From positions 620,001-684,000 of the forward strand of contig NZ_CP038231.1 in NCBI RefSeq assembly GCF_006542395.2: a stretch of DNA of 64,000 nucleotides, read 5' to 3'. The stretch is from Formicincola oecophyllae. Lineage in GTDB: Bacteria; Pseudomonadota; Alphaproteobacteria; Acetobacterales; Acetobacteraceae. The position numbers were made by a program, and so were the translations under genes. The notes beneath the pieces are model-generated. The model was not told the origin of the DNA. It worked only from the letters and a program-made list of their open reading frames with translations, and ran no database searches. How positions within the stretch are numbered: position 1 is the stretch's first letter; every line of letters begins with the position of its first letter. Positions 56,033-60,939 of this stretch are shown piece by piece.

Positions 56033-56633
56033 AGGGTTCCTTAACGTAAAGTGCTACTATGCAGCCCCCTGTGCCGAAATACTCCACCAACCGCAATGCA
56101 GGGGGGACAGGTGGGGCGATTGGTGGCGCCTTCGCAGGCCACGTCATCAGCAACCGCCCCCCTGGCGCCAGCTCCCCGGCGCGCTTGGTGAGGAAAAACT
56201 CCGCGCGCGCTGCCTCAGCCACGCTCAGCGCTACCCAACCCAGATGCACGCTGTCCTTTTGCCACAGCTCCTCTTCAGCGGAACCCACCAACTGGCCCCC
56301 CATCAAACGGCCACGCGCCCCTTGGGCATGGTTTGCAAGGATGGCCACGGTTTCAAGCAGAGCTTGACACCATGCCCCACCACCACGCCTGCCGAGCAAA
56401 ACCAATGGCCTGTCTGGAGCAAGCCCCTTCAGCAAAACGTCCAGCAAGGGTTGCAATCCTTCCAGGTCCAGGGAATGGGACAAGGCGCTGTAATCGGCCA
56501 GCACAACCGGCGCCCCTGGCCACGCACCCTCCAGCAGGCTTTGCTTAAGCATGGCCTGGGCTGTTGCCGCCAAAGCCCCAGCCAGTTGCGCATGGTCTAT
56601 CAAAAACGGAAATCCAGCGTTGAATAAAGCCAA
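56022..56633 (-). CDS. Hypothetical protein between two envelope genes
   Basis: A 203-codon frame encoding a mixed, mostly globular product (PVVLADYSALSHSLDLEG, RPLVLLGRRGGGAWCQAL, ELAPGGRLLMTWPAKAPP). The last block resembles a nucleotide-binding strand-turn, and LAPGGRLLMTWP is reminiscent of a class I methyltransferase late strand, but the SAM motif is not evident. It overlaps the porin gene by 34 nt at its start and the secreted-protein gene by 11 nt at its end. A shorter start is possible (for instance 56552). No ribosome-binding site is strong, so the gene is uncertain. Confidence 0.5.
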   Translation of the reverse strand: MALFNAGFPFLIDHAQLAGALAATAQAMLKQSLLEGAWPGAPVVLADYSALSHSLDLEGLQPLLDVLLKGLAPDRPLVLLGRRGGGAWCQALLETVAILANHAQGARGRLMGGQLVGSAEEELWQKDSVHLGWVALSVAEAARAEFFLTKRAGELAPGGRLLMTWPAKAPPIAPPVPPALRLVEYFGTGGCIVALYVKEPFTG

Positions 56634-58810
56634 GCGTCATCATGAAAACCGGCGCGCCGCATGCCTTTGCTCATGCGGACGTCACCACCAAATATCAGAA
56701 ACTTAACATGCTGGCCCAGCTGGATGTCAGCCTCCAGCTGGGGGTCAAAGCCAATGTAGCGCCCTGCCTTGTGTAGCAAAATGGGATCGGCTGGCAGGGC
56801 GTAAGGCCCAAACGCACTCACCAAGCCGCCGCTCTTGTGCTGGCGCCACATGAAGGGCAGGCGGGCGCGCAGCGATATCCAGGAGGTTGGCACCGTGCTC
56901 AACAAAGGGGCGAGGTAATACATGTTGGAGCGGCCGAAATTGCCGCCTGCGTCAATCAATGTACCAGAGGGAGAAAAGGGCGCCTCAAAATCAGTCACCG
57001 CGCCATTGCGGCGCTGGCGCCCACCTGAATAGAGCTCAGCGGCACCACCGACAAAGCTGTGCCAAGGGGCCCAGGCTGGGCGCCAATCAGCCATGATGCG
57101 CGCGCCGTAAGCATGGACGGGGCGCCGCTGGCCGTTCTCCCCCTTGTAGGAGCCACGCTGCATCACAGCACCCATGTCCAGTTCCCACTCCTTGGCGGAG
57201 GTGTACCAGCGCAGGGCCAGGTTCTGGCGCATCTGCTCCCCGGCGCCGCTGCCCTGAGCCTTGGCCCAGGTGCCGTCATAATGGAAGCCCAACCAGTATA
57301 AATACAGGAAAGAGCGTATGTTTTGGGTCTTGGGCAACATGCGCGGCAATGCCCAGCCACCCGTAATGCCGTAAAGGTCGAGCTTGGGGTCAAAGGCGCC
57401 CCCAAAAACATGGTTGCGGCTGTTGGGGTTGAGCTTCGTTTTGATGAAGTCGTAAAAATCCAGCCTAAAACTGTTCCACATCATGTAATAGCGCCCACCA
57501 TTCCATGATTGCGGAATGCCAGGATAGACACCTTCGTAAAGCAGCCAGGACGGCGCATCCAAAAACTGCTGCCGCCCTAGCATCAGGCCTGTTTTGGCGC
57601 CAAGCATGTTCCATTTTATTTCAGCAAACAGCTGCTGCACATCCAGCGTTTGGCGGTACGCCGCGCTGTAGCCGTAATAATTCCAACCACCGGCGTCAGC
57701 GTTGGAGAGCTGCCCAAACACCCTGAAATGTGGCCCAAAATGGAAGTCCGCCCCCAACAGGTTGCGCACATAAAACTGCCCTGCCCCCTGGTGGCCCACA
57801 TGGCCCAGTAAGGGTTGGCTTTGGTACCAGTTGTTCAGGCGCGACTCACCTGAAAATGTCACCCAGCTGTTGCATTGCCCCCCCAAGCCAAGGTCAACAT
57901 ATTTCAAAGGGTCGAGAAGGTCCTTGCGATTTTTGGGGTTGCACAGGCGCGACCAGTCCTCAGCCCAAGGGGAAACGCCATAAGTACCCACAGGGCCAAA
58001 ACCCGCGAACTCCCCATCGCCGAAATTGAACGCTCCCCAATTGCCTTGGTGGCGGTTGGGGGAACGCCTGTTCTGTTCCTCCGTCACCTGCATGGGCTGC
58101 CCAGACATGCCCGTCAGCGGGTAAAGCTCCACCTCAGCTGGCCGTTCCGAAGGGGGCAGTTCCGGCATCACGGGGGGCATGGCTGAGCGCTTGTGGGGAT
58201 GGACGAACATCACCTCCGTTTCGTCCTTGGCAGGCTGGGCCGCCGCTGCCTGCGCTTTCAGGCGCTCCGCCTTGGCGGCTGCCTCCTCCTCAGCGATTTC
58301 GCGCTTTTCCATGGCGCGGTCGCGGGCGATGTCGGCTTCGGCCTCCTCTTGCTCCTCCTCTTCCTCAACTTCCGCCACGCCGTGCTCGGCATTGTGGGGG
58401 CGCGCTGCGGTCGCGGGCATGTTCTCAGGCAAAGCCCCCACCCCCCAATGGGCATCCGGCAAAGGCTTTTCACCACCAGGGCCACCTAAAAGGGGGACAG
58501 GACCCTTGTGGCCATCAACATCATGGCCACTCAAGCGCAGCACATCTGGGCCCACATGGCTGCCAACGGCATGGGGGGTTTTGATGTCATGCCTGACCGC
58601 ACTCCAAAGGGGGGAGGCGTCTGGCGTTTTATCAGCGCTGACACGGGGTGCAGCTGGGTAACCACTAAGCACGCTGCCAACAGCTGCGGACTGGGCCAGC
58701 GCTGGGGGGACGCAGGCCAGGCCCAGCAACGCCACGCCCACATAAGGCAGAACGCAGAGGCAGGGCCGCAAAGCCGCCTTCAGCCCTTTGCCGCACCCGC
58801 ACTTTTTCAT
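56600..58810 (-). CDS. Alginate-export-type outer-membrane porin with Glu-rich segment
   Basis: Outer-membrane protein of 736 residues. A signal peptide (hydrophobic about 18-38, ALAQ-S) is followed by a proline-rich part, then an unusual acidic coiled-coil-like segment at about 147-190 (runs of Glu with Ala/Arg/Lys). The barrel begins about 285 and matches the alginate-export (AlgE-like) pattern: VTFSGESRLNNWY, QFYVRNLLGADFHFGPHFRVFGQLSNA, LFAEIKW and GRQQFLDAPSWLLYEG. It ends in Phe (YSTLDFRF), typical of outer-membrane insertion. ATG 58810 is preferred over 58828. The transported polymer or solute is unknown. Confidence 0.85.
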   Translation of the reverse strand: MKKCGCGKGLKAALRPCLCVLPYVGVALLGLACVPPALAQSAAVGSVLSGYPAAPRVSADKTPDASPLWSAVRHDIKTPHAVGSHVGPDVLRLSGHDVDGHKGPVPLLGGPGGEKPLPDAHWGVGALPENMPATAARPHNAEHGVAEVEEEEEQEEAEADIARDRAMEKREIAEEEAAAKAERLKAQAAAAQPAKDETEVMFVHPHKRSAMPPVMPELPPSERPAEVELYPLTGMSGQPMQVTEEQNRRSPNRHQGNWGAFNFGDGEFAGFGPVGTYGVSPWAEDWSRLCNPKNRKDLLDPLKYVDLGLGGQCNSWVTFSGESRLNNWYQSQPLLGHVGHQGAGQFYVRNLLGADFHFGPHFRVFGQLSNADAGGWNYYGYSAAYRQTLDVQQLFAEIKWNMLGAKTGLMLGRQQFLDAPSWLLYEGVYPGIPQSWNGGRYYMMWNSFRLDFYDFIKTKLNPNSRNHVFGGAFDPKLDLYGITGGWALPRMLPKTQNIRSFLYLYWLGFHYDGTWAKAQGSGAGEQMRQNLALRWYTSAKEWELDMGAVMQRGSYKGENGQRRPVHAYGARIMADWRPAWAPWHSFVGGAAELYSGGRQRRNGAVTDFEAPFSPSGTLIDAGGNFGRSNMYYLAPLLSTVPTSWISLRARLPFMWRQHKSGGLVSAFGPYALPADPILLHKAGRYIGFDPQLEADIQLGQHVKFLIFGGDVRMSKGMRRAGFHDDAWLYSTLDFRF

Positions 58811-59158
58811 AGCGCCCCAACCTTGCATTCAGCCAAGGAGACCCCGTTCAACTGCTTGTGCTTGCCCAGTTTCAGAGCCCCCCCGCTGCCAGCCATGTAT
58901 CACAGTGTTTCATTCGGGTTTCCCCACCCCATAAACCGGTGGTGGGCGCTTTAGGCTGGGGGCGTTTTGAACAGCCCCAAGACCAATTGGTCACCTCTTT
59001 GTCCAGGCATGGACGAAAGCGCCCGCCCCCTCAAGCCCATCCCAGGTCTGTCAGCATTTTTTCACGTTAAAACCTTTTTCATGGCTTGCCATGCGCCATA
59101 GGGTGACAAAGCCAGAACAAGTTTGGCTGAAAAAGCTTTGCAAAAAGGAAGACATTAA
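58811..59158. other. Divergent region between porin and hydrolase genes
   Basis: About 350 nt between the leftward porin gene and the rightward hydrolase gene. No gene seen. CCCCACC (near 58923) can pair with GGTGGTGGG (near 58940). TTGCAA at 59138-59143 could be a -35 element for the hydrolase, close to its operator. Porin promoter not identified. Confidence 0.5.
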
Positions 59159-59183
59159 TTAAATGAGTTAGAACTCACTTTAA
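59159..59183. promoter_or_regulatory. TetR-type operator upstream of the hydrolase
   Basis: TGAGTT-AG-AACTCA (59164-59177) is a perfect 14-bp palindrome, flanked by TTAAA (59159-59163) and TTTAA (59179-59183) so the symmetry extends to 25 bp with one extra base. It ends 13 nt before ATG 59197, where bound protein would block transcription. A TetR gene lies downstream of the hydrolase. Confidence 0.7.
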
Positions 59184-59196
59184 GTGATGTCCCTTT

Positions 59197-60264
59197 ATGA
59201 AAGTTCCCTTCATGACCTCTTCCACTCCCCAAGCCAGCTTCAATCCTCCCCCAACCACCAACACTGATCCACTGCCAGCTGGCGTCACGCGCAAAGCGGT
59301 CACCTACCCCAATTTCAACGGCTTGATGACCGCAGCAAACCTTTACCTGCCGCCCAACTTTGAGGAGATGGGCTCTTACCCGGCCCTGGTCATCGGTGGC
59401 CCCATGGGCGCCTGCAAGGAACAGTCTGGGGGCCTTTACGCTGCCAAGCTGGCGGCAGGCTACGTCACCCTCACTTGGGACCCGCTTTTCCAAGGCCTAA
59501 GCCAAGGTGAACCCCGCCACCAGGAAATCCCGTTCTTCCGCGTGGCTGACTTCACCTATGCCATCGACTACCTGGAAATGCTGCCTTACGTAGCCGCCGA
59601 CCGCCTGGGCGCACTGGGCATTTGCGCCAGCGGTGGCTACGTGGCCAACGCTGCCTTAACGGAACGCCGCATCAAGGCCGTGGGCACGGTTTCAGGCGCC
59701 AACCTTGGCCGCGTTCTGCGCGAAGGCAATTTGACGCCAAGCTGGGCCCTGACGATGTTGGACAAGATCGCTGTCGACAACACAGCCATAGCCCAGAACG
59801 GCGGCCAACCCCGCGCCCAAGACATCGTCCCCATCGTCCCCCCCTCCGTTGAGGCAGCCAAGGAGCAGGGCATGGGAGACATCGACTGGGTTCAGGCCAG
59901 CGCCTATTACCGCCAGCCACCCCACATGGCTGCTGGCTCCCCCAACAAGCTCCTGCTGATCTCGACGCGCTCCGCCTATGGCTGGGACGCCTTCCACCTG
60001 GCGGATCATTTGCTGACCCAGCCCCTGCACATCATCGTTGGGGGCGTGCCCGGCCTCATCGGTTCTTACCGTGATGGCTTCACCTTGCTTGACAAGGCCG
60101 CCAGCAAAGAACGCGCCATCACGGTCATGCCAGGGGTCACCCATGTGGATCTGTACTGGAAGGAGCCTTGCATCAGTGACGCAGTCAAGGAACTGGCCAG
60201 CTTCTTCAACCAGCACCTTTCCCTGGGGGCCTCCTTGGTGGAAACAGTGGAGAAGTTGTTCTGA
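59197..60264 (+). CDS. Alpha/beta hydrolase, YcjY-like
   Basis: Cytoplasmic alpha/beta hydrolase of 355 residues. The nucleophile elbow is GALGICASGGYVANAAL (Ser in ASGG), like the YcjY/dienelactone-hydrolase type. Upstream are YPALVIGGPMGACKEQSGGLYA and the oxyanion-region strands; downstream is the likely catalytic acid and the His in VTHVDLYWK. The substrate is unknown. The first ATG has no ribosome-binding site; ATG 59212 is a plausible alternative. A TetR gene follows 111 nt later, and a palindrome sits just upstream, so the hydrolase is probably repressed by it. Confidence 0.85.
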   Translation: MKVPFMTSSTPQASFNPPPTTNTDPLPAGVTRKAVTYPNFNGLMTAANLYLPPNFEEMGSYPALVIGGPMGACKEQSGGLYAAKLAAGYVTLTWDPLFQGLSQGEPRHQEIPFFRVADFTYAIDYLEMLPYVAADRLGALGICASGGYVANAALTERRIKAVGTVSGANLGRVLREGNLTPSWALTMLDKIAVDNTAIAQNGGQPRAQDIVPIVPPSVEAAKEQGMGDIDWVQASAYYRQPPHMAAGSPNKLLLISTRSAYGWDAFHLADHLLTQPLHIIVGGVPGLIGSYRDGFTLLDKAASKERAITVMPGVTHVDLYWKEPCISDAVKELASFFNQHLSLGASLVETVEKLF

Positions 60265-60276
60265 ACCCTTCAACAA

Positions 60277-60309
60277 GCCCAAACCCCGCGCTACGCTGGC
60301 GGTTTGGGC
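60277..60309 (+). terminator. Hairpin after the hydrolase
   Basis: GCCCAAACC (60277-60285) pairs perfectly with GGTTTGGGC (60301-60309) around 15 nt. CCTTGG follows, so the T-run is weak and read-through to the TetR gene is possible. Confidence 0.55.
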
Positions 60310-60375
60310 CTTGGTGGCCAATTGGCTATAAGGCTTTCTGGTTCAAAGCGAAGGCAAAAAGGCAGGGAACAAGCC

Positions 60376-60939
60376 ATGGCGCGCCCACGCGACCCCCAGA
60401 AAGCCACCACCATCCTGACCCAGGCCGTGGAAGTAGTGGCCCAACAGGGCGTCACCGCATCCACCAGCACCATCGCCCGCAAAGCAGGCGTGGCTGAAGG
60501 CACGCTGTTTCGTTACTTCCCCACCAAGGACGACTTGCTGAACGCGCTCTACGTACATTTAGCAGGGGAGGCACGCGCCCACATCACCAGCCGCCCAGGC
60601 CAGGGGGCGCGCCAGAACCTGCGCCAAGCCTGGGATGACTACATAGCCTGGGGGTTGGGCAACCTTCATGCCTCCAGCGCCATGCGGCAGATCGCCGCCT
60701 CCAATCGCTTGACCGACAGCACACGCCAAACGGTGGACAACCTTTTCCCGGAATTCATCACCCTGGGCGCAACCAGGGAAGGCCAGAAGCCCAGCGCTGA
60801 TGAAGCCGCCTTTTTCGATGCTGCCTTCATGGCCCTGGCTGACATCGTGATAAGCCACCAGCACGCCAACCCTGGCAACACCACATGGCGCGATAAGGCC
60901 TTCACCATGCTTCTGGCCGTGCTACCCGGCCCAGCCTGA
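60376..60939 (+). CDS. TetR-family transcriptional regulator
   Basis: Regulator of 187 residues. The N-terminal HTH is typical: ATTILTQAVEVVAQQGVTASTS, then TIARKAGVAEGTLFRYFPTKDDLLNALY. The C-terminal ligand domain is all-helical, and its ligand is unknown. ATG 60376 has AGGGAAC upstream; the frame is open 24 codons further but over the hairpin. It lies after the hydrolase gene on the same strand, and the palindrome at 59159 is its likely binding site. Confidence 0.92.
   Translation: MARPRDPQKATTILTQAVEVVAQQGVTASTSTIARKAGVAEGTLFRYFPTKDDLLNALYVHLAGEARAHITSRPGQGARQNLRQAWDDYIAWGLGNLHASSAMRQIAASNRLTDSTRQTVDNLFPEFITLGATREGQKPSADEAAFFDAAFMALADIVISHQHANPGNTTWRDKAFTMLLAVLPGPA

Follow-up and report, generated by a model that had tools for sequence, protein, structure and literature searches.

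The window, a 64-kb stretch of DNA spanning G000:C1:620001-684000 and analysed as a whole, carries near one end a gene for an alpha/beta hydrolase (59197..60264, plus strand), a gene for a 187-aa TetR-family repressor (60376..60939, plus strand) and, ahead of the hydrolase gene, a short inverted repeat (59164..59177, no strand assigned). The sequence-only reading of this DNA had stated that a TetR regulator follows the hydrolase, and this holds: both genes lie on the plus strand with 111 nt between 60264 and 60376. Besides the hydrolase gene, the TetR gene has genes for an Alginate_exp and a Ham1 protein as neighbours. The Alginate_exp match belongs to a 742-aa protein encoded divergently from the hydrolase (56600-58828), whose N-terminal third includes a long stretch of acidic, low-complexity sequence.

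The hydrolase matched no Pfam family at an E-value of 0.001, and its type was assigned from PDB sequences. It matched YcjY (5xb6, E 1.8e-54) and PA2218 (2hdw, E 1e-38), with homology extending over about 300 residues, and by these alignments it is YcjY-like. The cysteine and histidine of both proteins are aligned with Cys143 and His316 of the window protein; the cysteine motifs read GICASGG in the window, GICAGAG in YcjY and GICGWGG in PA2218, and His316 is common to the alignment. We take the putative nucleophile to be Cys143, as in dienelactone hydrolase. Identity with the AHL lactonase UilS was considered and rejected, as the match was partial and weak (37 bits against a curated cut-off of 400). 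As a guess, the substrate could be chemically related to the regulator's ligand, as an ester or a lactone.

The regulator was matched by TetR_N (51 bits) and by RamR chains (E ~1e-33). Its 15 best PDB sequences had E-values from 2e-33 to 9.8e-30, and the next one had 7e-12. Those 15 carry the names RamR, engineered RamR or "putative regulatory protein", or codes (NOS4, ROTU4, GLAU4, PAP4, QUI1, CAT2); we assume that the code-named chains and the "putative regulatory protein" are RamR or its variants. In the alignment, the recognition region GVAEGTLFRYF agreed at every residue with the Klebsiella TetR encoded beside romA-ramA. These similarities place the window protein in the RamR type. Three TetR_N matches were found in the genome; the window TetR, used as a query against it, matched only itself at E 0.001. 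This gives an anonymous TetR a place among repressors whose structures and box are known, which opens its target promoter to immediate testing.

Direct reading of TGAGTTAGAACTCA at 59164-59177 gave two 6-bp arms around a 2-bp AG spacer (TGAGTT-AG-AACTCA, or TGAGT-TAGA-ACTCA when written as a RamR-type box), with 12 of 14 positions symmetric; with the flanks included and AG excluded, 9 of 11 base pairs were symmetric over 59159-59182. The repeat had been described as a perfect 14-bp palindrome. The inverted repeat is there, but it is not perfect, because the 6-bp arms flank the AG spacer. It had also been placed 13 nt before the hydrolase start, a distance that fits no in-frame start: we measured 19 nt from the end of the repeat to the ATG at 59197, where the longest hydrolase frame begins, and 34 nt to the next in-frame ATG (59212). 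When the window was scanned with up to two mismatches, 59164-59177 was the sole matching place (two hits, one per strand), and 100 shuffles of the window gave a mean of 0.15 hits, with three shuffles reaching two. Looking for the palindrome elsewhere in the genome had been proposed as a check; TGAGTT-N2-AACTCA turned out to be a single copy in the 1.96-Mb, 3-contig genome, with 0.044 copies expected per genome under a dinucleotide model built on part of it. A second inverted repeat, TCACTT-T-AAGTGA (59175..59187, no strand assigned), was read directly and overlaps the first; it could be a second half-site or a chance occurrence. A second ACTCA repeat is frequent in relatives (ACTCACTCA), and the window has a partial version of it (ACTCACTTT). 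We rejected the CCAATTGG palindromes at 58983 and 60318 as alternative operators, since the window holds three against 3.1 expected.

The same box was then compared with the DNA upstream of other RamR-type genes. The genomes sampled for further TetR relatives numbered 299 from the order, 289 from the class and 398 from the phylum, and TetR matches were found in at least 8, 6 and 18 of them, respectively, own genome included, at the E-value limits set; plasmids contributed 12 of 61 records with a TetR match. The 34 RamR-type loci, 10 of which are enteric ramR loci and thus closely related, gave 31 distinct upstream regions of 250 nt. TGAGT-N4-ACTCA was present exactly in 17 of the 31 regions (0.0 in the resampled control), with at most one mismatch in 25 (0.19) and with at most two in 28 (2.4). 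Six distant TetR loci were kept outside this count; L123 and L124 had the box with one mismatch, and the other four had it with three or four. No good box was found before the TetR gene in L101, L102, L103, L107 and L125, and in L072 a box with two mismatches lay at the expected place. A matrix built on relatives only scored the window site at about 21, and 8 Mb of simulated sequence contained no site scoring 19 or more. This score falls within the training range of the 15-site matrix (18.6-33.0), which omits L072 for its two mismatches, and under every training site of the 14-site matrix (23.3-33.8), which omits L068, L072 and near-duplicates.

The relatives' boxes lie before the TetR gene or between it and romA/ramA, and none of the loci fetched had a box before a hydrolase gene that precedes TetR. 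In L102, a TGAGT-N8-ACTCA repeat lies some 590 nt downstream of the TetR start. Such a wider-spaced box (TGAGT-N8-ACTCA or close), some 585-597 nt downstream of the TetR start and before the next gene, was also observed in L069, L070, L071, L075, L110, L113 and L122; judging from these positions, the TetR gene may have RamR-type boxes on both sides.

Adjacent to the window box is an AT-rich, -10-like region, TAATTAAAT (59156..59164, plus strand), containing the hexamer TTAAAT at 59159-59164, which shares its last T with the start of the box. The hexamer matches TATAAT at four of six positions, a level reached at 12% of background positions, and a strict sigma-70 promoter scan gave no promoter at the window box. 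In the relatives, a TATAAT-like hexamer (5-6/6) ended at the first T of the box or at most 2 nt before it at 22 of 24 distinct sites, and a hexamer of at least 4/6 was present at 23 of 24; in the same upstream regions, 5/6 matches occurred at 2% of positions and 4/6 matches at 12%. This count left out L068, whose best match was out of register, the boxless L101-L103, L107 and L125, and L097-L099, which repeat L066 and L068. The hexamer faces romA/ramA in the enteric loci and TetR elsewhere. The window hexamer is in the same register as those of the relatives, but weak. Since it is weak and the strict scan was negative, the hydrolase promoter is proposed from this comparison.

The sequence-only reading had called the repeat a clear operator, and the occurrence of the same box at the same promoter position before RamR-type TetR genes in other genera supports this. 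On these comparisons, 59164-59177 is probably an operator, with the TetR as its likely binder. The results also indicate that, within Proteobacteria, the RamR box has a wider distribution than the ramA system of enterics. A literature search, covering few subscription papers, returned no earlier report on RamR in acetic acid bacteria and none linking a RamR homolog, Burkholderia, a short-chain dehydrogenase and TetR.

The genes beside RamR-type TetR genes include romA-ramA in enterics, SDR/oxidoreductase genes in several loci and a hydrolase gene in Cupriavidus, so a RamR-type TetR beside some small enzyme is a recurring arrangement. The loci of Acetobacter, Rhizobium, Phyllobacterium, Azospirillum, Burkholderia and Cupriavidus resemble the window in having this TetR type and its box beside a small enzyme gene; in those loci, however, TetR comes first and the box precedes it, whereas the enzyme gene comes first in the window. 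In Cupriavidus, a box with one mismatch precedes a TetR-then-hydrolase pair, and the hydrolase is 37% identical to that of the window over 150 aa. The order of YcjY-like hydrolase first and TetR second was not seen in the other loci fetched. Two hydrolase relatives came from a search of genome contigs; a tblastn search with the TetR (E 1e-5) gave no match at either locus. The closest TetR relative, in genome G069 (locus L101), was 52% identical, 50% over 161 aa or 44% at full length, depending on the alignment used. It is followed after 48 nt by a hydrolase gene (L127:4906-6732 for the pair) whose product has no significant similarity to that of the window. Its recognition helix, VSAGTIFVYF, is unlike that of the window TetR, and its upstream region has no box (best site, three mismatches). 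The box thus does not follow every relative. Conservation of the palindrome above homologous hydrolase-TetR pairs, which had been put forward as decisive for the operator, did not emerge, as the loci fetched contained no second such pair and the G069 pair is boxless. In one of the loci (L072:1929-2363), a gene annotated as encoding a VOC family protein appears in a plasmid resistance table as VIM beta-lactamase, which is likely a mislabel.

From the combined comparisons, we consider it quite likely that the hydrolase and TetR genes form a RamR-type autoregulated operon, repressed at TGAGT-N4-ACTCA and released by a ligand. The two genes, the RamR-type class, the common recognition helix, the common box and its common position can be seen in the sequences compared, and the promoter, binding, repression, cotranscription and ligand release are predicted. 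In this model, a TetR dimer, or two dimers, would bind the box, which overlaps the end of the -10 element and the probable transcription start of the presumed hydrolase promoter. The bound repressor would block transcription of both genes. A ligand entering the C-terminal pocket would release it, and hydrolase and repressor would be made as long as the ligand lasted. The 111-nt gap between the two genes contained no box (best site, five mismatches) and no terminator-like or promoter-like site. A detoxification or catabolic role of this unit, as suggested earlier, is possible.

The genome contains exactly two copies of the core TGAGT-N4-ACTCA, against about 0.65 expected under a dinucleotide model. 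The second, TGAGTCAAAACTCA (G000:C1:868914-868927; L126:8415-8428), lies 131 nt before an acrA-acrB-nodT operon encoding an RND pump. The RamR-type TetR may therefore have two targets and also control the pump directly through this site, replacing a lost local TetR; we hold this as a tentative possibility, rather short of probable, which adds to the autoregulated operon and does not exclude it. Both exact core boxes are noncoding and upstream of genes, and spacers of 2 to 10 nt gave just three further sites in the genome, all with N3 (one of them within a tRNA-Ala gene, the other two inside reading frames). However, about 0.65 core boxes per genome are expected by chance, and sites of equivalent matrix strength at about 0.5 per genome. 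The pump site scored 17, under all training sites, and a third site, overlapping a start codon elsewhere in the genome, scored slightly higher (17.7-18.2). The looser pattern GTGAGT-N4-ACTCA with up to two mismatches occurred 157 times against 180 for its reversed control and was thus not enriched; only the exact core counts were used. The extended pattern AATGAGT-N4-ACTCAC was seen twice against 0.017 expected, but the extension was picked after the sites had been seen. By itself, the pump site is not beyond chance.

The third site just mentioned (G000:C1:60836; L089; CATGAGTGATAACACATTTA), where the gene with the overlapped start codon is SDR-like, was taken as a probable chance occurrence. 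SDR genes also neighbour several RamR-type genes elsewhere.

The pump was also compared with those of related genomes. An acrA match at E 1e-60 was found in 66 of 200 genomes of the family, own genome included, and the best 29 loci besides our own were examined. A divergent TetR gene adjoins acrA in 24 of these 29 (counted by distinct locus, with a TetR profile iterated four times on its own hits; the hits counted had E 5e-27 or better). The dyad GGAAAC-N6-GTTTCC lies upstream of acrA in 23 of the 24 TetR-bearing loci with at most two mismatches, in 21 with at most one and in 14 exactly. These 23 are L132-L160 except L145, L147, L148, L154, L156 and L157; L148 bears a TetR and misses the dyad (five mismatches). 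The five pump loci without TetR had the dyad at two mismatches in one case and at four or five in the other four. Given this association, GGAAAC-N6-GTTTCC is probably the operator of the pump's divergent TetR. Around our own pump, TetR was absent from the 19.9 kb examined, and the best dyad had four mismatches. When the three TetRs of the genome were compared with four of the 24 pump TetRs, no alignment longer than 30 aa exceeded 35% identity; the longer alignments gave about 30-35%, against 41-52% among the four. Replacement of the regulator is plausible because our own pump lacks both the divergent TetR and the dyad and because the TetRs of the genome are so distant from the pump TetRs. Set against this, no relative's pump had an exact box within 600 nt (0 of 29; two had a site with one mismatch), and five of the 29 likewise have no TetR within 1.5 kb, yet no such box. 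We therefore regard as somewhat unlikely the full rewiring, in which the pump of this small acetic-acid-bacterium genome would have lost its dedicated divergent TetR and the GGAAAC-N6-GTTTCC operator and a RamR-type repressor with TGAGT-N4-ACTCA would have taken over. If it were true, one ligand-sensing repressor would switch the hydrolase and an efflux pump directly, without the enteric RamA activator. If the pump site is real, it would be a natural case of a pump changing both repressor and operator, checkable via two short dyads, and the earlier description of the locus as a compact unit may be too narrow.

The repeat might also be the site of another regulator, with the adjacent TetR acting elsewhere. 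The boxless locus of the nearest TetR relative and the position of the TetR gene downstream of the hydrolase, 111 nt off, would agree with this, but the box agrees with that of RamR-type genes both in sequence and in its place at the promoter, and among the three TetR_N matches of the genome the window TetR was matched only by itself, which makes this explanation improbable. That the repeat is a nonfunctional dyad arisen by chance, as the negative promoter scan and the weak -10-like hexamer might suggest, is very improbable for a sequence expected 0.044 times per genome yet sitting in the promoter region that a RamR-type regulator would predict.

The autoregulated operon has its closest known counterpart in the RamR system. 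The window TetR shares with RamR of Salmonella and Klebsiella the TetR class, the recognition helix and the TGAGT-N4-ACTCA box (the box in Klebsiella and other enteric loci), and it is 42% identical to Klebsiella RamR over 166 aa. According to PMC6336783, Salmonella RamR is a repressor of ramA as well as of ramR, and its affinity for DNA falls when it binds bile acids, berberine, ethidium or other ligands; Klebsiella RamR is described as shifting the palindrome-bearing region (PMC3117140). By analogy, this published work shows the same logic as that proposed for the window operon. A survey of TetR-family genes describes RamR as genus-specific when Escherichia is compared with Salmonella (PMC6790063), in line with a patchy distribution. 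The multidrug and bile acid pocket of RamR is given as Tyr59, Thr85, Ser137, Asp152 and Phe155 (PMC6336783). In the alignment, Tyr59, Asp152 and Phe155 correspond to Tyr59, Asp148 and Phe151 of the window TetR, whereas Thr85 and Ser137 are replaced by Leu and Arg; the Klebsiella protein has Ala at position 85 in the same alignment. Because the first three residues are kept while positions 85 and 137 differ, we would guess that the ligand may be aromatic. The gene context also differs from that of the ortholog locus, ramR-romA-ramA: romA and ramA, which are divergent neighbours of ramR in enterics, are not adjacent to the window TetR gene, and a YcjY-like hydrolase gene in the same direction is found instead.
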